A stretch of DNA of 64,000 nt from Pseudisothecium myosuroides. Its lineage: Eukaryota > Streptophyta > Bryopsida > Hypnales > Lembophyllaceae. The DNA lies in NCBI GenBank assembly GCA_951799445.1, contig OX637288.1:8248501-8312500 (forward strand), read 5' to 3'. Positions 6,267-51,234 of the stretch are shown here, piece by piece (position 1 is the first letter of the stretch; every line of letters begins with the position of its first letter). A program made the position numbers and the translations under genes. The notes under the pieces are model-generated. The model was given only the letters and a program-made list of their open reading frames with translations, made no database searches and was not told where the DNA came from.

Positions 6267-7156
6267 TTAACCTCTAAACCCCTGAAGGACCAAGGCCTTT
6301 TTTTTTGCCAAAAAACACTCAAAACTGCCATTTTTATAGCAAAGAGTAAAAGTATTTGAAAACTGTTTTGTTTTCTACATCTAACCGTAGGATCTTACAC
6401 CTAACTAGTATGAGAATGTGTAGAAAAAATTCAAAAATTTTGACCGCAAAGATTGCAAGATATCTGCGTTTAAAGTGAAAAAAACACAAAGTTAAATTTC
6501 TGCACTACAAAGTTTTGAGCTTTAAATCTTTATGGTAAATAATTGAGTTGAGAGTCTAGGATAAAAAAAAAAAAAAATTTAATTTTAATTTGTTAAAAGA
6601 TTATGAAGTAGAAGTAGATATGAAATAGTAGGAAAATCTAAATTATTAATATCTCTAAGATGGAATTAAATTGCACAAATCCCAATGGTGAGATTGTTCT
6701 AGCAAGCAAATTAAGCTATGCAAAACTTTTTTTTTTGAAAAATTGTAAGAATTGCATTCAAAAATGAATCCTACAAGTTATTTTTCCAAGAAGATGCTCT
6801 AAATCCTCTAATTGCCCAAAAAACAAGATTGTCCATAACTTTCTCATAAGAAATCCAAATGGAATGAATCGAATATTTCCATGTACACAAAAATGTAATC
6901 TATGAGAAAATAAATAAATAAATTCTATTTTTTGGATTTTTTTTTACTACCCAATCTCCCCTATTTTGAGCTTATTTGAGCATAACTTTTGTTGTCGGGC
7001 ACCAATTGAAAAAAAATATTATATTTCCATGAAGCTAATCAATTTTTCTATCTTCAAAAAAAAGTTTCAAAAAATCATATCGAAAATTGAGCCCATAGAT
7101 ACCTGCCTGAAATCCCATTTGTGTCCTGAAGGGACAAATGGTCCTTTAGAGGTTAA
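6267..7156 (+). mobile_element. TTAA-family element, copy 1
   Basis: This copy begins TTAACCTCTAAA and ends TTTAGAGGTTAA. The left end carries a small insertion before GAAGGACCAAGG. The body shares the T-run, AAAACACTCAAAACTGCC, the core CTAACCGTAGGATCTTACAC (about 6380) and the right-end GAAGGGACAAATGGTCC with the other copies. It is 890 bp long and has no coding capacity. Confidence 0.85.
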
Positions 7157-8288: not shown

Positions 8289-9437
8289 TTGACCCCTATA
8301 GGAGTATTGTTCCTTCGAAGGATAAATGGAATTTTGGTCAAGAACCTACGGTCTGAATTTTTGTTGTAATTTTTTGAAACTTTTTCTGAAGATAGAAAAC
8401 CTGATCAGCTTAGAGGGAATCTAATTTTTTTTTTCAATCGGTGCTCAGAAACAAAAGTTATACCCAAATAAGCTCAAAACATGGAAAAGGGGTAGCAAAT
8501 TTTTTTCTAAAAAATTTGAATATTTAAAAAAAAAACTAAACTCATAGATTAGTTTTTGTCTACATGCAAAGATTTGATTCATTCCATTTGGATTAGTTAT
8601 GAGAAAGTTATAGTGACAATCTTGTTTTTTGGGCAATTAGAGCATCTTCTCAAAAAAATAACTTATAGGATTCATTTTTGAATGCAATTTTTCCAATTTT
8701 TCTAAAAAAATAAAATTCCACATGGTTCAATTTATTTACTGGAACAATCTCACCATTAGGATTAGTGCATTTAAATTCCATCTTAGAGATATTAATAATT
8801 TAGATTTTCCTTCTATCTTGTACCTATTTCTAAATACTTGACAATCACTAGAAGAAACTCGCGTTTTAGGTAACGAATTCCAATTTTTTTAAACGGATTT
8901 TAGGTGATGTCAATGTTGACAAACCAATGTTTTTATGTGAACATTGATGTTACATGGGACGTTCTTGTTGATATAAAAACATGGGTTGTCAACATTGACA
9001 TCATCTAAAATCCATTTAAAAAAATTGGAGCTTGTTATCTAAAACACGGCGTTCTTATAGTGAATTTTTTAAAGAATAAAAATTAAGTTTTTGAATTTTT
9101 TTTCCTAGACTCTCAATTCAATTTTCCACCAAAAAGAACTAAAGCTCACGACTCTGTAGTGCAAAAAATTAAAGTTATGAAGGCTCAAAGTCAAATAATC
9201 TAGTCCCACAATGTACTGAATTTTTTTTTAATACTTTAAATACAAATATCTTGCAATTTGTGCAGTCAAAAATTATGAAACTTTTCCTACACATTCTCAT
9301 ACTAGTTAGGTGTATGATCCTACACTTAGATGTACAAGAAAAAAAACAATTTTCAATTTTTTTAATAGTTTGCTATAGAAATGATAGTTTTGAGCGTTTT
9401 CTAGTAAAAAAAAAGGTCTTGGTCCTTTAAGGATTAA
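8289..9437 (-). mobile_element. TTAA-family element, copy 2 (inverted; carries a nested CACTA MITE)
   Basis: Lying opposite to copy 1, it starts TTGACCCCTATAGG (first A of TTAA mutated) and ends GGTCCTTTAAGGATTAA. After removing the 217-bp nested element and its 3-bp duplication it is about 929 bp, the family's usual size. Its last TTAA (9434-9437) is also the first TTAA of copy 3. Confidence 0.85.
8846..9062. mobile_element. Palindromic CACTA-type MITE nested in TTAA-family copy 2
   Basis: It begins CACTAGAAGAAACTCGCG and ends with the complement of CACTATAAGAACGCCG. The two arms, each nearly 100 bp, are inverted complements, so nearly the whole element folds back. It is flanked by the 3-bp duplication AAT (8843-8845 and 9063-9065). 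CACTA ends with a 3-bp duplication are the hallmark of CMC/CACTA transposons. There is no coding capacity. Confidence 0.9.
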
Positions 9438-10351
9438 CCCCTATAGGAACATTGTCCCTTTGAGGGACAAATGGGATTTTGGGCAGGTACCTACGGTCTG
9501 AATTTTTGTCCTAATTTTTTGAAACTTTTTTTGAAGATAGAAAAGCTAATAAGCTTTGTGGGAATCTAATTTTTTTTTCAATTGGTGCCCAGGAACAAAA
9601 GTTATGCCCAAATAAGCTCAAAGAAAGGGAAAGGGGGCAACAAAAAAAATTAAGAGATTGAATTGAATTTTTTTTCTTCGTAGAATATATTTTTGTCTTC
9701 ATGGAAAGATTTGATTCATTCTATTTGGATTGGTTATGAGAAAGTTATGGTGACAATCTTATTTTTTGGGCAATTAGAGCATCTTCGCAAAAATATAACT
9801 TGTAGGATTCATTTTTGAATGCAATAATTATAATTTTCTTAAACAAAATTCTACATAGTTTGCTTTGCTTGCTAGAACAACCTCACCACTGGGAATAATG
9901 CATTTTAATTCCATCTTTGAGATAGTAATAATTTAGATTTTCCTTCTATCTTGTACCTACTTCTACTTGACAATTTTTTGAAGAATAAAAATTGAGTTTT
10001 TTTTAATTTTAATTTTTTCCTAGACTCTCATTGCAATTCTATACCATGAAGATTTAAAGCTCAAAACTTTGTAGTGCAAAAAACTAAAGTTATGAAGGTT
10101 CAAAGTCAAATAATCTAGTTTCGCAATGTGCTGAAAAACTTATTTTTTTCACTTTAAATGCAAATGTCTTGCAATTTGTGCAGCCAAAATTTCTGAAATT
10201 TTTTTTACACATTCTCATACTAGTTAGATATATGATCCTATAGTTAGATGTGCAAAAAAAACAATTTTCAAATTTTCTTACTCTTTGCTATAGAAATGGC
10301 AGTTTTGAGTATTTTTTGGTAGAAAAAAGGCCTTGGGACTTAAAGTGTTAA
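9434..10351 (-). mobile_element. TTAA-family element, copy 3 (inverted, abuts copy 2)
   Basis: It starts TTAACCCCTATAGG and ends with a decayed complement, ACTTAAAGTGTTAA. Near the left end is a hairpin, TTGTCCCTTTGAGGGACAA, typical of that end of the family. It is 918 bp and noncoding. It keeps an uninterrupted version of the site where copy 2 carries the CACTA MITE (about 9965-9985). Confidence 0.85.
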
Positions 10352-11538: not shown

Positions 11539-12467
11539 TTGACCCCTAAAGGACCGAGGCTTTTTTTTCCATCAAACAACACTTGGAACTGCCATTTCTA
11601 TTGCAAAAGCAAAAAACTTTAAAAATTGTTTTTTTTGCATATCTAACCGTAGGATCTTATACTAGACTAGTATAAGTACGTATGGAAGAAATTTCAGAAA
11701 CTTTGACCGCATGGATTGCAAAATATTTGCATCCAAAGTGAAGAAAAAAAGTTTTTTTACACCTTCTATGACTAGATTTTCTGGCTTTGAATCTTTTTAA
11801 CTTAAATTTTTTGTACTACTGATTTTGATTTTTTAACTTTTTATGTTACATATTTGAGTTGAGAATATAGGAAAAAAATTCAGGAAAAAAAACTTAATTT
11901 TCACTCATTAAAAAATTGTTAAGCAGAAGTAGGTTCAAGAATAAAGGAAAGATAAAACCATTAATAACTCTAAGATGAAGTTGAAACACAATAATCCCAA
12001 TGGTGAGATTGTTCTAGCAAGCAAATTTAACCATGTCCAACAATTTTTTTTGGAAAATTGTAAAAATTGCATACAAAAATGAATCCTGTAGGTTATTTTT
12101 TCAAAAAGATGCTTAGATTGCCCGAAAAACTAAGATTGTCCATAACTTTTTCATCACAAGTCCAAATTGAATGAATCAAAGCTTCATGTATAGACAAAAA
12201 TATAATATTTTAGAAGAAAAAAAATTTAAAAATTATTTTGACTTTTTGTGATTTTTTTGGCTGCCCGCCAATCTCCATTTTTGGCTTATTGTGCCATAAT
12301 TTTTGCTCCCGGGCACCAATTTAAATAAAAATTATATATCCACAAAGCTCTTGCAAAACTACACAACCTTAAAAAATCCCAAAATATTTTACTACAAATT
12401 GTAACAATAGGAACCTACCTGGACCCAAATTGTCCTTTGAGGGGACAAACGGTCCTTTAGGGGTTGT
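11539..12467 (+). mobile_element. TTAA-family element, copy 4
   Basis: It starts TTGACCCCTAAAGGACCGAG and ends GGTCCTTTAGGGGTTGT, so both flanking TTAA motifs are mutated. Internal landmarks match copies 1 and 6, including CTAACCGTAGGATCTTA at about 11644. It is 929 bp and noncoding. Confidence 0.8.
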
Positions 12468-13250
12468 TCAATACTTTGCATACTATTGTGCCAATAGTCT
12501 CAGTATTACAATAAGTATATGGAATATATATGGGTGGTCTTGTTATTTTTACTCTTTTTTCTATAAGATATGGGTTATGTATAATACACAACTGATTCTT
12601 ATTTATAAACAATGAGTTTGAATTTCAAAAGGGATTTAGAATCTACCTTAAATTCTATTAGAAAAGTATCAAAAAAATAATTTTTTCAGCCACTGTTCCT
12701 TACTGTCTGGGAACTCATAGACCCCTTGAGGACTCATTTTTTTACTAATATTTCTAAAGATCTTAAGCTCACATGCTAGCAACCTTGCATTAAAGTGGGC
12801 ATTGAAGTTATGATTCCTCTTCTTATATAAACAATCCTTTGGATACTGAGAGAGTACCCTTACATGGTTTTTAGTTTAACCCTAATGATTCAAGGGATCT
12901 AAAATAAAACTTAAATGTGCAATTAAATATATTTTTTACAAAATATTGAGGGTTTTATTAAGAGAGATTATATAATTGTGTATTATGAATATAAGTGATT
13001 TAAAAATTATTATTATTATTAATTTTAAAATTTATTTAAAATCATGAATTTTGGTTTTAAAAATCACAAAAATAAAATTTGTATTTTTAGCATTAAAAAA
13101 TCAACTAGTTGAAATTTTACCTTACATTGATTAGAAAAAATTGGTCAAAGTTATTATCTTAAGAAATGTATTACTTTCCTCTTATTAAAATCTTTTGACA
13201 TTAATAATATTTTTCAATTTTTGTTCATTTCCTTGTTAAAAAAATCTAAT
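12468..13250. other. Gene-free AT-rich DNA, nothing recognised
   Basis: Long A/T runs with no terminal repeats or coding frame that resembles a family. Confidence 0.45.
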
Positions 13251-14358
13251 TTATAATATTTTTAGTAAAAAAATATTTTTCTACTATACATAAATATATA
13301 AAAATTGGAACAAGATTTATTTCCCACTCAATCAAGCATGGTGCAAGACAACAAATAGCTACAACAAAATGGTTGCACAAGTCATCAAGTTTAGCTCTAA
13401 AATGTTTCAAAGAACAAAAAAATTACTTTCAAAGTTGTTGTAGAAACAAAGAATGTATAATTGGGTACCATTCAAAATGGCGTTTTTGTATTTGCAGGGA
13501 AGGAAATTTCACATCTGCCAACTTTGACAACCTTCCGATGGCTCAAAAATTAGTCTTTGACTATGAAATTTTTACCACAACATCATCTGTAAGTTAGTTA
13601 TATGTGTGCTAAATTTCAAGGCCAAAAGACTTACACAAAAAAAGATATTCAAAATCTACCAACATGTATAGCCATGAGAAATTTTTTGCTACTGCCAACT
13701 TTGACACCCTCCCAAGGACTAAATTTTTTTTTCCCATGAAATTTTTGGCATAGGACCATATATGTGTTGATTAAATGTATGAAAAATTTCAAGTCCAAAA
13801 GACACCCACAAAAATAGATATTCCAAATCTACCAACATGTGTAGTTGTGAGAAACAATTTCACTACAACCAACTTTGACACCATCCCAAGGGTTGAAAAG
13901 TTGTTTATTTATCATGAAATTTTTATGATGAAATCATCTCTATGTTAGTAATATGTGTGACAAATTTCAAGTTCAAAAGATTCACACAAAAAAAAATGCT
14001 AGTTCTACCAAGGCATGTGTAGTTGCGAGAACGATTTTTTCAGGCCTTGGGATAGTGTCATTTTTTGGGTAAAATTTCACACGGATGCAGAAAGTCATTC
14101 TTACAACTACACATGTTGGTAAAAAATTTAGATAATACAAATTTAATTTATAATATTTTTAGTAAAAAATTATTTTTCTACTATACATAAATATATAAAA
14201 ATTGGAACAAGATTTATTTCCCACTCAATCTGAAAGCATGGTGCAAGACAACAAATAGCAACAACAAAATGGTTGCACAAGTCATCAAGTTTAGCTCTAA
14301 AATATTTCAAAGAACAAAAAAATTACTTTCAAAGTTATTGTAGAAACAAAGAATGTAC
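13251..14358. repeat. Direct repeat pair (about 207 bp) enclosing a 3 x 175-bp tandem array
   Basis: The block at about 13251-13457 recurs at 14148-14356, nearly identical and in the same orientation. Between them lie three diverged units of about 175 bp, marked by CCAACTTTGACA at about 13518, 13694 and 13869 and by ATCTACCAACATGT further along. No TG..CA ends, primer-binding site or polypurine tract is evident, so this is not a convincing miniature LTR element. Confidence 0.7.
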
Positions 14359-15289
14359 TCAACCCCTAAAGTTCCTTGACTATGTTCTCACCAAAATGCT
14401 CCAAAACTGCCATTTCTAGTACAAGTACCAAATTTTTGAAAAATATCATTTTTGGACATGTGTAACCATAGGATCTTGTAGTACTCTGGTTTGAAAATAT
14501 GTAGAAAAAATTTCAGAAATTTCCATTGTGTAGATTGTAAGATATTAGCGTTTGAAATGGCAAAAGTCCTTTTTTTGCCCCGGCGAAAAACCGAGCAGCT
14601 GCACTTCACAAGGTCAAATTATTATGAAAAAATTTCCAAAATGGTTGTGCTTCTTTGGATTCATTCTTCAGGTCAAGTTGGCTATGTGCTTGAAAATTTT
14701 CAGATCATTTGGAATTGTACAACATATAGCAAAAAAATAACAAGTAGAAAGAAGTAGAGAATGGTTCAAAACACTAAATTGTTAAAAAGTTAATTATGGA
14801 ATTGAAAAATGCCAATCCCAATGGTTGCAATGTTGTAATAAACAATCTACATCCTACAATTTTATTTTTTTTGAAAAATATTGAAAATTGAGTGAAATAA
14901 ACAACTTCAAAGTTTATTTTAGAGTGGACAATCCATAAGTGCCCGCAAACTAAAAATCTTCATAACATTTGACTCATTAATCAAAATGGAATGATTCGAA
15001 GCTTTCCACGTATGTGTAAATCTAATAAACTGATTTCAAATTTTTATTTTTGAAAAAAGTGATTTTTTTTATCTGCCCGGACTGCCCGAGTTGAGAAACA
15101 AACAACGTAATAGGCCATAACTTTTGACTCGTATTTCCAAATGTCATGAAATTTGGTGCATATGAAAAATATTCCTCGTCCCCACCTTCTATAAAAATTT
15201 CAGCCCAAAATATGAATATATCCAGTCACTTGTACCTGCCCAAAATTTCTATGTTGCCAAAAAACGCATGTTGGTCCTTTAGGGGTTAA
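14359..15289 (+). mobile_element. TTAA-family element, copy 5 (divergent subtype)
   Basis: It starts TCAACCCCTAAAG (TTAA mutated) and ends GGTCCTTTAGGGGTTAA. The core motif is altered to GTAACCATAGGATCTTG. Its right end resembles the left end of copy 8 in reverse. It is inserted exactly at the end of the second 207-bp direct repeat, followed by GGGGTACC. The first repeat has GGGTACC at the same place without an element. It is 931 bp. Confidence 0.8.
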
Positions 15290-15796: not shown

Positions 15797-17494
15797 ATTA
15801 TACTACCAAAATCATAACTCCCTCTGTAATATCACAAATGCCATTAATAATAGGGGCTCATGCTTGCTATGCTACGCATTCATTGTATCACATATTAGTA
15901 AAATTTTGATATATTTGAATATAATGCATGATAATGATTTCAATAAGTCTTTGAAATAATTAATTTTAATATTTTATAAAAATATTTTCAATCATGCATA
16001 CATAAAAATAATATTTTCACACAATGTTATATTGCAGATATAGAGTAGTAGTTTGCAATCACCATTCACCATTGCATATATTTCATTCATCATTCAATAA
16101 ATTTCTATTGGTACGTTTCAATATATGCTTACTTATAAACAAAATTATACAAAGATTTTAGTAATTTTTATTTGAAGATTTATTGAAATTTTTGTTCTGC
16201 ATTTTATCTAATATATAAAAATTATAATAAAATTCTAATGATGAATGCGTAGCATAGCAAGCGTCAACCGCTAGTTATACTACTATACTACTAAAATCAT
16301 AACTCCCTCTGTAATATCACAAATGCTACCATTAATAATAGGGGCTCATGCTTGCTATGCTATGCATTCATTGTATCACATATTAGTAAAATTTTGATAT
16401 ATTTGAATATAATGCATGATAATGATTTCAATAAGTCTTTGAAATAATTAATTTTAATATTTTGTAAAAATATTTTCAATCATGCATACATAAAAATAAT
16501 ATTTTCACACAATGTTATATTGCAGATATAGAGTAGTAGTTTGCAATCACCATTCACCATTGCATATATTTCATTCATCATTCAATAAATTTCTATTGGT
16601 ACGTTTCAATATATGCTTACTTATAAACAAAATTATACAAAGATTTTAGTAATTTTTATTTGAAGATTTATTGAAATTTTTGTTCTGCATTTTATCTTAT
16701 ATATAAAAATTATAATAAAATTCTAATGATGAATGCGTAGCATAGCAAGCGCCAACCACTAGTTATTATTTATTTTTATTATTATACTACTAAAATTATA
16801 AATCCCTCTGTAATATCACAAATGCTACCATTAATAATAGGGGCTCATGCTTGCTATGCTATGCATTCATTGTATCACATATTAGTAAAATTTTGATATA
16901 TTTGAATAGAATGCATGATAATGATTTCAATAAGTCTTTGAAATAATTAATTTTAATATTTTGTAAAAATATTTTCAATCATGCATAAATAAAAATAATA
17001 TTTTCACACAATGTTATATTATAGAAATAGAGTAGTAGTTTGCAATCACCTTTGTAATATCACTTTTACAGCTTTTATGATTTCAAAATTCTATTGCTAC
17101 TACCAAATGATTTGAGAAATTTATTCAATTGAAGCGATTTTGGATTTCACAACAATTAAGTTGTTCATGAAGTTTTTGAAATTTACAAATTTTTCTTTTT
17201 AATTCACCAAGTTTTGGGGTTGCCATTGTTCGTAACAATTGAGTCAACTTTTGAATGCATTACAATAAATGTGTATCTTTTATAGTATTCACCATTGCAT
17301 ATATTTCATTCATCATTCAATAAATTTCTATTGTATGTTTCAATATATTTACTTATAAACAAAATTATACAAAGATTTTAGTAATTTTTATTTGAAGATT
17401 TATTGAAATTTTTGTTTTACATTTTATCTAATATATAAAAATTCTAATAAAATTCTATTGATGAATGCGTAGCGTAGCAAGCGCCAACCGCTAG
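15797..17494 (+). mobile_element. Tandem array of three Helitron-like units
   Basis: The units are 15797-16274, 16275-16762 and 16763-17494. Each opens with TACTACTAAAATCATAACTC or a variant, has GCTTGCTATGCTACGC near the left end and its exact inverted partner GCGTAGCATAGCAAGC near the right end. Each finishes with a short stem, AGCG-CCAAC-CGCT in unit 3, with minor changes in units 1 and 2, running into CTAG followed by T. A hairpin plus CTAG with a T after it is the 3' signature of plant Helitrons. Units 1 and 2 are almost identical. Unit 3 carries an extra block of about 236 bp at 17051-17286. No Rep/helicase frame is present, so these are non-autonomous. Confidence 0.7.
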
Positions 17495-18150
17495 TTTAAT
17501 AAATAAAATATAAAAAATAAACATTCAAAAAATTCATTTTTTTTTAAAATTAACTAAATATTACTATGTAACATGGCACTTTCTTGACCACGTTAGCTGC
17601 GGGTGTGACAAAGTTCCAAGAGTTTCCACAGTCCGAGAACTCTCTGAGAACTCACAGTCTTCGGAAGCCCTCAAATCTCTTCTAATGAAGCTTTTAGTAG
17701 ATGGAACTATTCATGTTAGAATTTTGGCATTCCAACGTCCAAGTTTTCTTGTGTTCGGCAACTTTTAGGTTTTCTTGTTTTCCGAAACTTGTCATGTGGG
17801 GCTTAAGGCACGATGTAGGTTTTCAAAAATATTCAAAAATTAGACAATGTGGATGAAAAACTTCTGCAGCATTTTGGACATTTCACTTGTAATATTCCTA
17901 ACATTCAAACATTTCAAAAAACACTTAATTCATGTCTAATTCTAACCCTTGAAATAGGAAAATTTTCTTTTAAATAAAACATTAATATAAATCATCTTTG
18001 AAAAAAGATTTCTAAGACAAATCTTTCTAAAATCTTGCTCAAAATCTCATACTCCACCTCTTTTCATCACCTTTGGTGTGAAATGTACCCTAGATGAGGG
18101 TTTATCTCAAATTTAATAATATATATATTATTATTAATAATTTATTACGG
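17495..18150. other. Upstream region of the UDP-xylose synthase gene
   Basis: Gene-free DNA, AT-rich on the left and becoming mixed towards 18150. No TATA box or other promoter element could be assigned with confidence. Confidence 0.4.
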
Positions 18151-36215: not shown

Positions 36216-38300
36216 TGAAATAAGTCTTGAATGATTGATATGAGCAACAAAAAGGTTTTAATTTCAATTACAATCAATGCACCAAAATGGAAAATTTTGA
36301 CTATTTTACTTAAAAAAAAACCCTCTGCTTTTTAGGAGTCAACAAAAATTGAATGAATTTAGTTGAAAGTAGATGCCAAAGTAGATGACAATTATACTAT
36401 TTGAGATAGTATGACAATAGTGTGGACCAAACTTTAGATAATATTGTTCTCTAAAATAATTTGAAGTCTCATATTTGCACTCCAATACAAAATTGCATAA
36501 TTCTTTAACCCCTAAAGGACCGAGGCCCTTTTTTTGCCAAAAAACACTCAAAACTGCCATATCTATAGCAAAGAGTAAAACAAATTGAAAATTATTTTTT
36601 TTTTCCACATCTAACCGTAGGATCTTACACCTTACTAGTATGAGAGTGCGTGGAAAAAAATTCAGAATTTTTGACCACACAGATTGCAAGATATCTGCGT
36701 TTAAAGTAGAAAAAACAAGTTTTTCAGCACATTGCAGGACTAGATTTTTTGAGTTTGAAAATTTTTAACATAAAATTTTTGCACTACAGAGTTTTGAGCT
36801 TTAAATCTTTATAGTGGAGAATTGAGTTGAAAATCTAGGAAAAAAAAAGAAATTCAAAAAAACTTAATTATCATTCTTAAAACAATTGTTAAGTAGAAGT
36901 AGGTATGAGATAGAAGGAAAATCTAAAATATTAATATATTTTAGATGGAATTAAAATGAACAAATCCCAATGGTGAGATTGTTCTAACAAGTAAATCAGA
37001 CCATGCAAAAAAAAAAATTGAAAAATTTGAAAAATTGCATTCAGAAATGCATCCTACAAGTAATTTTTTTCAAGAAGATGCTCTAACTGCCCGAAAAGCA
37101 AGAATGTCCATAACTTTCTCAAAACATATCCAAATGAAATGAATCAAAGCTTTCCAAATAGGCAAAAATATAATCTACAAGAATAAAATAAATAAAAATT
37201 CAAATTCAAATTTTTGTCCATTTTTTTTGGCTGCCCGGGCTGCCCGCCATCCCCCATTTGATAACTTTTTTTCCTGGGCATTGATTGTGAAAAAAATTAT
37301 ATTCCTACAAAGCTTATCAGCTTTTCTACCTCCCAAAAAAGTTTCAAAAAATCTGGAGAAAATTTCAGCCCGTAAGTACCTGCCCGAAAACGCATTTGTC
37401 CCTCGAAGGGACAACGGTCCTTTAGGGGTTAAACTAAAATAAACACTCTGAAGTAAAATTATAATTGAATTATCTTTGGTAGTATCATTTTTAAAATTTT
37501 TGATATTTACACCTACATGTCACATTAATCAATATTTAATTGAAGAATACAAATACCATTTTTTATTAACTTCATTCATAAATTTGATATATTCAATCCA
37601 ATCTTTAAAACTAAATTTCAATTTTTATTTTTATTTTTATTCCTTGAGATTAAAAATAATCTATTAATGTGAAAATCCCTATTAGTTTCTAAAAATTGTC
37701 ATTGTCATAATTTCTATAGCAAAAATTGTTAAATATAATACAAAGAATTAAGCTAATTAGAATTTTTGCAAAATATACAAGTGACAATGAAGAATAGAAC
37801 GAAAATTTTCCAATTAATTATTCTAGTTTTTAGACAAAAAACACCTTTACCAATGACCTTGGAATCAAATTATTAATATTAATCTAAATTTAGTCTTTAT
37901 ATTAGATTGATATCTTTTAATTGGATAAGAACTTTTATTGTATATATATTGACGGTCTCAAAAATTTTGAAGAAAAATAAAATATTTTTGAATATAACAT
38001 GCTGAAGGCTCTATATTTGTCGTATGGGTGGACATGCTCTTAGGGCCCCAAACTTAGCTAAGCTCACAATTCCCTTATTCATACTTTATGTCTCCATGTT
38101 CTCTTTCTGCATTCCCAAATTTTCCAACCATTGATTCCTATGAAGCTTCCATCCATGGTTATTATTTATGATCAAGTCCCTCCCGTCTTCTCCATCTTTT
38201 TGAGTTTTCCTTTCCACACAATTTGTAATAAGGGTTTTGTTGAAGTGCGTGTGAAGTTTGAAGAAATTGGTTGCCCTAACTTTGTCTGTTAAGTTGCATC
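36216..38300 (+). repeat. Segmental duplication, copy A (paralogue of the TAP46 upstream region), interrupted by TTAA-family copy 6
   Basis: Outside the insertion at 36505-37432 this block matches 42835-44720 in the same order and orientation. Shared stretches include TGAATGAATTTAGTTGAAAG, AGTAAAATTATAATTGAATT, ATCTTTGGTAGTAT and GAAGCTTCCATCCA. The right end corresponds to the sequence just upstream of the TAP46 start, but no TAP46 coding sequence follows, so only the upstream part was duplicated. Confidence 0.8.
36505..37432 (+). mobile_element. TTAA-family element, copy 6 (best-preserved ends)
   Basis: It begins TTAACCCCTAAAGGACCGAG and ends GGTCCTTTAGGGGTTAA, with a right-end hairpin TTGTCCCTCGAAGGGACAA. 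The core CTAACCGTAGGATCTTACAC is at about 36611. It is 928 bp. The paralogous duplicated segment at about 43098 has a single TTAA at the corresponding position and no element. Confidence 0.92.
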
Positions 38301-42834: not shown

Positions 42835-44720
42835 GAAGTTCAACAACAACAAAAAATTTCAACTATGATCGATGCACCCTTAAAAAAGGAGTTTTTGACT
42901 ATTTTACTTGAAAAAACACCCTTCTTCCTTTGGGATAAAAAGAAATTGAATGAATTTAGTTGAAAGTGGATGAAAGTGGATGACAATTATAATATTTGAG
43001 ATAATTTGACAACGGTGTGTGCACCCAAACTCTATTGATGTTTACTAAAATAGTTTGAAGTCTCATATTTGTACTTGTTACAAAATTCCGTAATTCCTTA
43101 ATTCATTTGAATTAGAAAAAATACTATGAAGTAAAATTATAATTGAATTATCTTTGGTAGTATTATTTTTTTAATTTTTTTAATTTTAAGTATCCACATC
43201 TATATGTCATATTATTCAATTTTTGATTAATTAATGAAAATACCATTTTTTATTAACTTTAACCATAAGTTTGATATGTTGAATTTGATTAAGCATTTAA
43301 AATTAAAGTCTAGTTTCAATTGTACATTTTTGTCACTTAAGATAAAACATAGTCTATCTATGTGAAAATCTCTATTAGTTTCTAAAAATAGTCAATATTA
43401 TAATTTCTATAGCAAAAAGTAAATGTAAATTGTTAAATACTCAGGAGTATAACACAAAAAATTCAACTAATTTTACTTTTTTTCCAAAAGTACAAGTGAC
43501 AATGAAAAATACAAAAAATTTGAATTAATTATTCTAGTTTTTACACCAAGAGCACCTTTGGCAATGACCATAAAATCAAATTATTATTATCAAGCTAAAT
43601 TTAATCCTTAGATTAAATTAATTTTGATATTTTTCATATACAGAACAATGTCTTTTTTATGTACCTTTACATAATTGATTTGATAAAAATTTGATATCTT
43701 ACAATTGGTAGGAACTTTTATTCTATATATACTAACTATTTTAGAAATTTAGAAGAAAAATCAAATGCTTGTGAGTATAACATGCCAAAAGCTTCATATT
43801 TGTTACGCTCTTAGGGTCCCAAACTTGGCTCAACCTACAATTCCCTTAACCCCTAAATGCCCAAAGCCTTTTTTGAGCTTCTAGGAATTTGCTCTAATTG
43901 AACAAAAAGTCAACATTTCCATAAGTTGTATCAATTTTTTTTTTAATTGTAACCATACAAATTCAAACTAGACATATTAGAGATCTTATTAAAAAATAAA
44001 ATACAACAATATTACTTATGGATTTAAAGATTATAATGTTTGATCGTGAGGGTGTTAATACTGCGAAAGTAATTTGAAGTCTTCCAATCTCCTTTTTACA
44101 TGTCAAATCTAAAAAGTTGGTCACCAAAAAAATATGAGGTTAAAGGGCCTAATATATATATAACACCCCAATCAATTTATAACTTTTCAAAACCTACTCT
44201 ACAATTTTTTTAAATGAATTTCTAATGTGATTTTTTCTTCAAGATTTACTATACTTGAAGCTCATTTCCAAGAGCCCTCAACACTACGGAAGGTCAAGAT
44301 TGCAATGGACACCCTTGCACAAAATCTTGAATAGAAAAATCATAATCATTCATTTTCAAAATCGGATTTTCGATGCTAAAACTAGACTTAAACAGGATTT
44401 AAAAAATATTTATAAAACACTAAAAATAGCAACTTGGTTAGGTTTTATTTAATTTTAAAGTATTGTCGACAACCCAAATTGGGTGCCTTGGGCATTTAGG
44501 GGTTAACGTCCCCATGTTCCCTTCCAGCGTTCCCAAATTTCCTCACCGTCCATTCCTCTGAAGCTTCCATCCACGGCCATTTACGGTCAAGCCCCTCCCG
44601 TCCTCTCCAAGTTTCTCAGTGCTCGTTTTCACACAATTCGGTACAAGCCAGGGTTTTGTTGGAGCGCGCGTGAGGTTTATTCGGTTTGAAGAAATCGTTT
44701 GCCCTAAGTTTGTGTGCTAA
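42835..44720 (+). repeat. Segmental duplication, copy B (adjoining TAP46), interrupted by TTAA-family copy 7
   Basis: Partner of the block at 36216-38300. Near 43098 it has the intact site CCTTAATTC where copy A carries element 6. It also contains element 7 (43846-44506), where copy A has the uninterrupted CCCTTATTC at about 38085. Its right end is the TAP46 upstream region and leader. Confidence 0.8.
43846..44506 (+). mobile_element. TTAA-family element, copy 7 (short, divergent)
   Basis: It begins TTAACCCCTAAATGCCCAAA and ends TTGGGCATTTAGGGGTTAA, a 19-base inverted match. At 661 bp it is shorter than its relatives and most of the interior is unlike theirs, so it forms its own subtype. It sits about 700 bp upstream of the TAP46 start. 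Confidence 0.88.
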
Positions 44721-50295: not shown

Positions 50296-51234
50296 TTAAC
50301 CCCTAAAGGACCGGCATGCGTTTTTTGGCCGTATAGAAATTTTGGGCAGGTCCGTGTGACTAGAGATTTCCATATTTTAAGCTGAAATTTTAATAGAAGG
50401 TGGGCGCAAGGAATATCTTTCATATGCACTAAATTTCAAGACATTTGGAAATAGGAGTCAAAAGTTATGGCCAAATATGTTACTTTTTTCCATAATTGGG
50501 CAGTTCAGGCAGCAAGAAAAATTTGGCAAAAATTTGATTTTTTTTTTTTAATATTTTTTTCTTGTAGATTATATTTTTGTCTATCTGGAAAGCTTTGATT
50601 CATTTCATTTGGATTTGTTATGAGAAAGTTATGGACATTCTTGTTTTTCAGGCAGTTAGAGCATATTCTTGAAAAAAATAACTTGTAGGAATCATTTCTA
50701 AATGCTATTTTTGCAATTTAAAAAAAATAAATTCTCATGGTTTAGTTTACTTGCTAGAACAATCTCACCATTGGAATTAGTGTATTTTAATTCCATCTAA
50801 AATATATTAATGTTTTAGATTTTCCTTCTATCTCGTACCTACTTCTACTTAATAAATTTTTTAGGAATGATAATTAAGTTTTTTTGAATATATTTTTTTT
50901 TCCTAGACTCTCAACTCAATTCTCCACTATAAAGAATTAAAGCACAAAACTCTGTAGTGCAAAAATTTTAAGTGCAAAATGTTTAAAGTCAAAAAATCTA
51001 GTCCCGCAATGTGCTGAAATACTTGTTTTTTCCACTTTAAATGCAAGTATCTTGCAATCTGAGCAGTCAAAAATTCTGAAATTTTTTCCACACATTCTCA
51101 TACTAGTTAGGTGTAAGATCCTACGGTTAGATGTGCAAAAAAAACATTATTCATTTTTTTTTACTCCTTGCTATAGAAATGGCAGTTTTGATGGATTTTT
51201 GGCAGAAAAAAGGCCTTGGGCCTTTAGGGGTTAA
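50296..51234 (-). mobile_element. TTAA-family element, copy 8 (chimeric)
   Basis: It starts TTAACCCCTAAAGGACCGGC and ends GGCCTTTAGGGGTTAA, 939 bp. The left quarter, with TTTTTTGGCCGTATAGAAAT, matches the reversed right end of copy 5. The remainder, including GTGTAAGATCCTACGGTTAG at about 51112, matches the main subtype of copies 1, 2, 3 and 6. Confidence 0.88.

Follow-up and report, generated by a model that had tools for sequence, protein, structure and literature searches.

Short non-coding MITEs related to piggyBac are found in animal genomes alongside autonomous elements, and they combine a TTAA flank with ends starting in CCC. In the biochemistry of piggyBac, CCCC ends are bound, excision runs through hairpins with TTAA overhangs, the TTAA is restored and a new TTAA becomes duplicated on insertion. 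TTAA duplications are also made by Sola3 elements. Animal piggyBac elements mostly start with CCC and target TTAA, rarely TTAG or TCAA, according to the accessible part of PMC10813416. For plants, the accessible text of a MITE review names PiggyBac as one of the angiosperm MITE groups, which are assigned from their ends and duplication (PMC10004981). Another review counts PiggyBac among the plant superfamilies, with no element given in the part available (PMC10794571). A review of land plants names six TIR superfamilies (Tc1-Mariner, hAT, Sola, Mutator, PIF-Harbinger, CACTA), and piggyBac is unmentioned in its available text (PMC9033089). The original prediction for the locus described here had not expected piggyBac in a land plant, an expectation with which the last review agrees and from which the second differs. 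Among the titles and abstract openings listed from open-licence papers, none describes a land plant, moss or otherwise, with a piggyBac transposase of its own.

The window, a stretch of 64,000 nucleotides from Pseudisothecium myosuroides, carries eight short elements with paired inverted ends. They are interpreted as non-autonomous piggyBac members, MITE-like derivatives that obtain their transposase in trans from full-length elements elsewhere in the genome whose ends of 13-14 bp match; the probability of this reading is put at about 0.94. Copy 6 reads TTAA-CCCCTAAAGGACC ... GGTCCTTTAGGGG-TTAA and comprises the following features.

36505..37432, plus strand: copy 6, non-autonomous piggyBac element of 928 bp, inverted ends TTAA + CCCCTAAAGGACC (direct reading)
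36505..36508, no strand: left target duplication of copy 6, TTAA (direct reading)
36509..36521, plus strand: left terminal inverted repeat of copy 6, 13 bp, CCCCTAAAGGACC
37416..37428, minus strand: right terminal inverted repeat of copy 6, 13 bp
37429..37432, no strand: right target duplication of copy 6, TTAA (direct reading)

Eight copies with inverted-repeat ends of the TTAACCCCTAAAGG type had been predicted, and paired ends were found for all of them. Their treatment as one family holds for copies 1-6 and 8, while copy 7 forms a separate family with the related end CCCCTAAATGCCC. Copy 6 as BLAST query against the window retrieved copies 1, 2, 3, 4, 5 and 8; copy 7 was absent among these matches. 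When up to 3 mismatches were allowed, a 14-base end pattern matched the window 23 times, compared with a mean of 6.4 in shuffled sequences, and 23 or more matches occurred in 0 of 100 shuffles. The remaining copies are located as follows, with the outer 4-mers given left / right.

6275..7156, plus strand: copy 1, copy-6 family, TAAA / TTAA (end pattern, BLAST)
8289..9437, minus strand: copy 2, copy-6 family, TTGA / TTAA (end pattern, BLAST)
9434..10351, minus strand: copy 3, copy-6 family, TTAA / TTAA, degenerate right end (end pattern, BLAST)
11539..12467, plus strand: copy 4, copy-6 family, TTGA / TTGT (end pattern, BLAST)
14359..15289, plus strand: copy 5, related subfamily, TCAA / TTAA (end pattern, BLAST)
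43846..44506, plus strand: copy 7, second family, 661 bp, ends CCCCTAAATGCCC, TTAA / TTAA (end pattern)
50296..51234, minus strand: copy 8, copy-6 family, TTAA / TTAA (end pattern, BLAST)

Exact TTAA makes up 11 of the 16 outer 4-mers and flanks both ends in four of the eight copies (3, 6, 7, 8). These counts rise to 12/16 and 5/8 if copy 1 is started at 6267, the position given earlier, where a TTAA is found 8 bases outside 6275. The left end of copy 1 is preceded, at 6267-6291, by a short and incomplete repeat of its own end (TTAACCTCTAAA). Copies 2 and 3 adjoin and have one TTAA (9434-9437) in common. Adjoining elements with a single common TTAA were also seen at L067 147-150 and at G000:C1:3409591-3409594. 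The arrangement looks as if one element had inserted beside another with loss of one duplicate, or as if both had used the same TTAA. Copy 8 resembles a chimera, being copy-6-like at one end and copy-5-like at the other. Copy 6 and the other window copies are non-coding, and the longest stop-to-stop frame in a copy-6-family consensus from 30 genome copies has 101 codons. The window contains in addition direct repeats of about 213-767 bp that are near-identical (94-96%), at 15799-17496 and 13242-14357. It also carries TAP42, coatomer epsilon and a P450 exon, whose four best solved matches are enzymes that we take to be of plant origin.

The abundance of the ends was determined in the whole genome (388 Mb, 222 contigs). 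The exact 13-mer CCCCTAAAGGACC occurs 14,269 times (7203 + 7066), the reversed control 6 times (4 + 2). A tabulation of the flanking bases had been proposed, with flanks other than TTAA counting against the assignment. TTAA directly precedes 12,717 of the 14,269 exact ends (89%; 6438 + 6279) and none of the reversed controls; 11% of the exact ends lack it. In the first 100 places listed for C1, neighbouring ends that face inward form 24 pairs no more than 6 kb apart, with a span of 905-951 bp in 17 of them. From exact ends only, with two ends per element and 0.94 kb each assumed, a rough figure of ~7,000 elements or ~1.7% of the genome is obtained. Thirty copies of each family were fetched, the window's own copy included in both sets. 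TTAA flanks both ends in 29/30 copies of the copy-6 family and in 24/30 of family 7, fractions that are biased by selection for similarity to a TTAA-containing query. The 30 copies of the copy-6 family diverge by 2.6-5.3% from their consensus; having been chosen for their closeness to copy 6, they are likely the youngest. A corresponding family-7 consensus was discarded, the copies being in mixed orientation. One span of 4123 bp between opposite exact ends on C1 (L083) was considered as an autonomous element and rejected: it has no frame of at least 80 amino acids and its matches are short copies.

The target site was examined at empty counterparts of occupied loci. Copy 6 lies in one arm of a duplication, and its flanks, joined at one TTAA, were aligned to the other arm.

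43098..43110, no strand: site corresponding to that of copy 6 in the second arm of the duplication, no element, single TTAA at 43098-43101, ~9 extra bases adjacent (alignment)

The original prediction had called this arm, at ~43098, an empty-site proof. The single TTAA, the lack of an element and the similar flanks stand, but the ~9 extra bases beside the TTAA led to its rejection as a clean proof, and the alignment is suggestive of an empty site for copy 6. Gapless junctions were obtained from nested insertions. At L008, a copy-6-family element is nested in a family-7 copy, for which copy 7 is the uninterrupted counterpart with a single TTAA. At L043, family 7 is nested in family 7, and several uninterrupted family-7 copies align over a single TTAA. 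The two nested elements occupy the same TTAA (ATGAGG-TTAA-AGGGCC) in different family-7 copies, and this site is possibly a hot spot. Two of the 30 fetched family-7 loci (L033, L059) are flanked by TTAG at both ends, so the four bases are duplicated target and not element sequence. Precise insertion at TTAA with duplication of TTAA, as claimed before, is borne out by the TTAA-preceded ends genome-wide and by the single-TTAA sites at nested insertions.

These flanks bear on MITEs of Tc1/mariner (TA) or PIF/Harbinger (TAA/TTA) whose ends read TTAA by chance. Both are plant MITE types, as stated in the accessible text of PMC10004981. The full TTAA before 89% of the exact ends, the copies flanked by TTAG on both sides and the one whole TTAA kept at nested empty sites argue against such an origin, as does the piggyBac transposase between matching ends that is described below. 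The duplication measures 4 bp, not the 2 bp (TA) of Tc1/mariner and Stowaway or the 3 bp (TAA/TTA) of PIF/Harbinger and Tourist. An origin from either superfamily is accordingly given next to no credence.

A profile search with PF13843 in the same genome yielded 899 candidates; 116 were scored, and 116/116 exceeded the cut-off (best E 1.7e-83). PF13843 matches were found in 0 of 14 control genomes, a set that may say little for eukaryotes. The transposase matches are distributed over contigs C1 to C11, which makes contamination unlikely. Ends were sought at six transposase loci. Full elements were delimited at four of them, with TTAA on both sides in 4/4.

L069: 5626 bp, CCCCTAAAGGACCA at both ends, TTAA both sides, stop-free PF13843 frame
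L070: 6159 bp, ends CCCCTAAAGGACTA / CCCCTAAAGGACCA, TTAA both sides, stop-free PF13843 frame
L061: 5414 bp, ends CCCCTCAGGGCCGG, TTAA both sides, transposase element
L067: 5076 bp, ends CCCCTCAACGCCC, TTAA both sides, one stop in the transposase

At L068, a single end was found (TTAACCCTAAAGCGACGG), and its partner was not found when one side was extended by 3 kb. No paired ends were present within L066 itself. Next to the 5076-bp element, L067 1-150 contains the end of another element (TTAACCCTTAAAGGACGGAC), which is similar to the one end of L068 (TTAACCCTAAAGCGACGGAC).

A piggyBac-type transposase between ends like those of the window had been named as the confirming observation. It was found in the 5626- and 6159-bp elements, three of whose four ends are exactly the window element's 13-mer; the fourth differs at the last base. 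Their stop-free frames comprise 758 and 589 codons and score 273-276 bits, the cut-off being 22.4. Compared with solved structures, the transposase matches piggyBac (6x67, E 1.8e-33) and piggyBat (9c0f, E 6.5e-23). Three aspartate motifs (VDE/IDE, xDN, GVD) align across four transposases of the genome, and their aspartates presumably correspond to the catalytic triad of the solved piggyBac enzyme. Cysteine pairs in the tail also align in the four proteins; with the default cut-off, PF13842 gave no score. In a comparison of the 758- and 589-codon frames across 467 codons, 81% of the silent sites and 19% of the amino-acid-changing sites are different, which shows that selection has maintained the protein. 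A dN/dS ratio is not given because the silent sites are saturated.

The assignment to piggyBac from TTAA and CCC ends thus rests on two full-length elements that enclose a PF13843 transposase within ends of this type, on short inverted ends starting with CCC (CCCCTAAAGGACC) and on a TTAA target duplication. Kolobok-type elements also duplicate TTAA, but their ends read 5'-RR...YY-3' in the accessible text of PMC9587614, as opposed to CC...GG here. With a piggyBac transposase sitting between matching ends, a Kolobok origin is very improbable. Sola3-type elements with TTAA duplications would fit a plant host, Sola being listed among the land-plant superfamilies in the available part of PMC9033089; the transposase between the matching ends is of the PF13843 piggyBac type instead, leaving Sola3 with hardly any weight. 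Kolobok, mariner and Harbinger are each contradicted by the ends or by the target site.

The source of the transposase for the short copies was approached by comparison with the full-length elements. The copy-6-family consensus is 73% identical to the outer regions of the 5626-bp element (over 201 bp and over 150 bp) and 77% identical to the outer region of the 6159-bp element (over 220 bp). With the left part of copy 6 in place of the consensus, identity to the end regions of the full-length elements is 71-74%. The right part of copy 5 (positions 931-559, reverse complement) aligns with the leftmost 375 bp of the 6159-bp element, with 81.5% identity in 379 columns, and interior stretches of that element match short copies as well. 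The likeness of 73-77% in the end regions indicates that neither full-length element is the direct parent of the short element. The short elements may instead have been spread by a piggyBac lineage now lost or unseen, with the 5626- and 6159-bp elements as relatives and not helpers. The low likeness of the end regions, set against only 2.6-5.3% divergence of the 30 best short copies from their consensus, speaks for this possibility. The matching 13-bp ends of short and full-length elements, the end homology, which extends over ~200 bp at one end and 100-150 bp at the opposite end, and the interior matches of the 6159-bp element speak against it, and it is considered unlikely, although it carries far more weight than the rival superfamilies. 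The preferred reading remains mobilization in trans, in which the lineage of the 5626- and 6159-bp elements, or a close relative, would have mobilized the window copies. Full-length elements would supply piggyBac transposase to the short copies. By analogy with piggyBac biochemistry, the enzyme would bind their CCCC ends and excise them through hairpins with TTAA overhangs, leaving a restored TTAA. Reinsertion would take place at a new TTAA, which would become duplicated.

Another autonomous family, of 5.4 kb, has five copies, each on a different chromosome; in the 4116 bp that were compared, their identity is 99.9-100%. TTAA flanks both sides in 5/5, and the flanks differ. One copy read fully contains a 1056-codon frame. 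The near-identity together with the TTAA at each copy suggests that this piggyBac family has probably moved recently. Six further PF13843 loci of equal score (261.1 bits) share a 1091-codon frame (G000; C1:12694405, C4:26656011, C5:9238704, C8:18677768, C9:10081009, C10:14546048) and perhaps represent a second recently copied piggyBac family.

Of 7988 candidates scored in a protein search with the 758-codon frame, 39 were reported as hits, and identity reached 67% among the closest. Three hits carry an organism label, all of them insects with 24-29% identity; the closest hits are unlabelled. A tree of 36 rows was built from the four transposases of the genome and 32 proteins chosen from the 74 found, with a midpoint root only. 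In this tree, the four transposases form two lineages within one supported clade of 22, together with 18 unlabelled proteins and apart from the three insect rows. A broader proposal is that a piggyBac fauna has long resided in a land plant and is mobile there to this day. It would comprise several autonomous lineages with their own ends, the newest with five near-identical copies, would have driven the growth of a very large family of piggyBac-derived short elements, possibly one of the largest, and would belong to a plant- or environment-associated clade apart from the named insect members. This proposal is advanced tentatively, at slightly below even odds.

The 116 scored PF13843 loci, some of them with stop-free frames, one newly copied family and more than 12,000 TTAA-flanked ends of a single short-element family would settle, in one plant lineage at least, that piggyBac exists there. 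In rice, use has already been made of an insect piggyBac enzyme (PMC10905368, accessible part), and the full-length elements could be the source of a plant-native enzyme for footprint-free genome work. They also offer a natural setting for asking how plants coexist with piggyBac elements.

The system belongs to a known superfamily, with non-autonomous piggyBac elements and autonomous relatives in one plant genome; it is ordinary in kind and unusual in host and scale. It shares with the described piggyBac superfamily (PDB 6x67/6x68; piggyBat 9c0f) a homologous transposase with aligned aspartate motifs, the TTAA duplication and short CCC ends. It differs in the plant host, in the long N-terminal parts of the transposases (frames of 758 and 1056 codons; 589 in a third) and in the element size of 5-6 kb. 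The likeness to Kolobok ends with the TTAA duplication. Like the animal piggyBac MITEs, the short elements are non-coding, have TTAA and CCC ends and coexist with autonomous elements; unlike them, they measure 0.94 and 0.66 kb and reside in a plant. In contrast to the angiosperm PiggyBac MITEs (PMC10004981) and the mention of PiggyBac in PMC10794571, as given in the accessible text of both reviews, the transposase itself is present here between matching ends.
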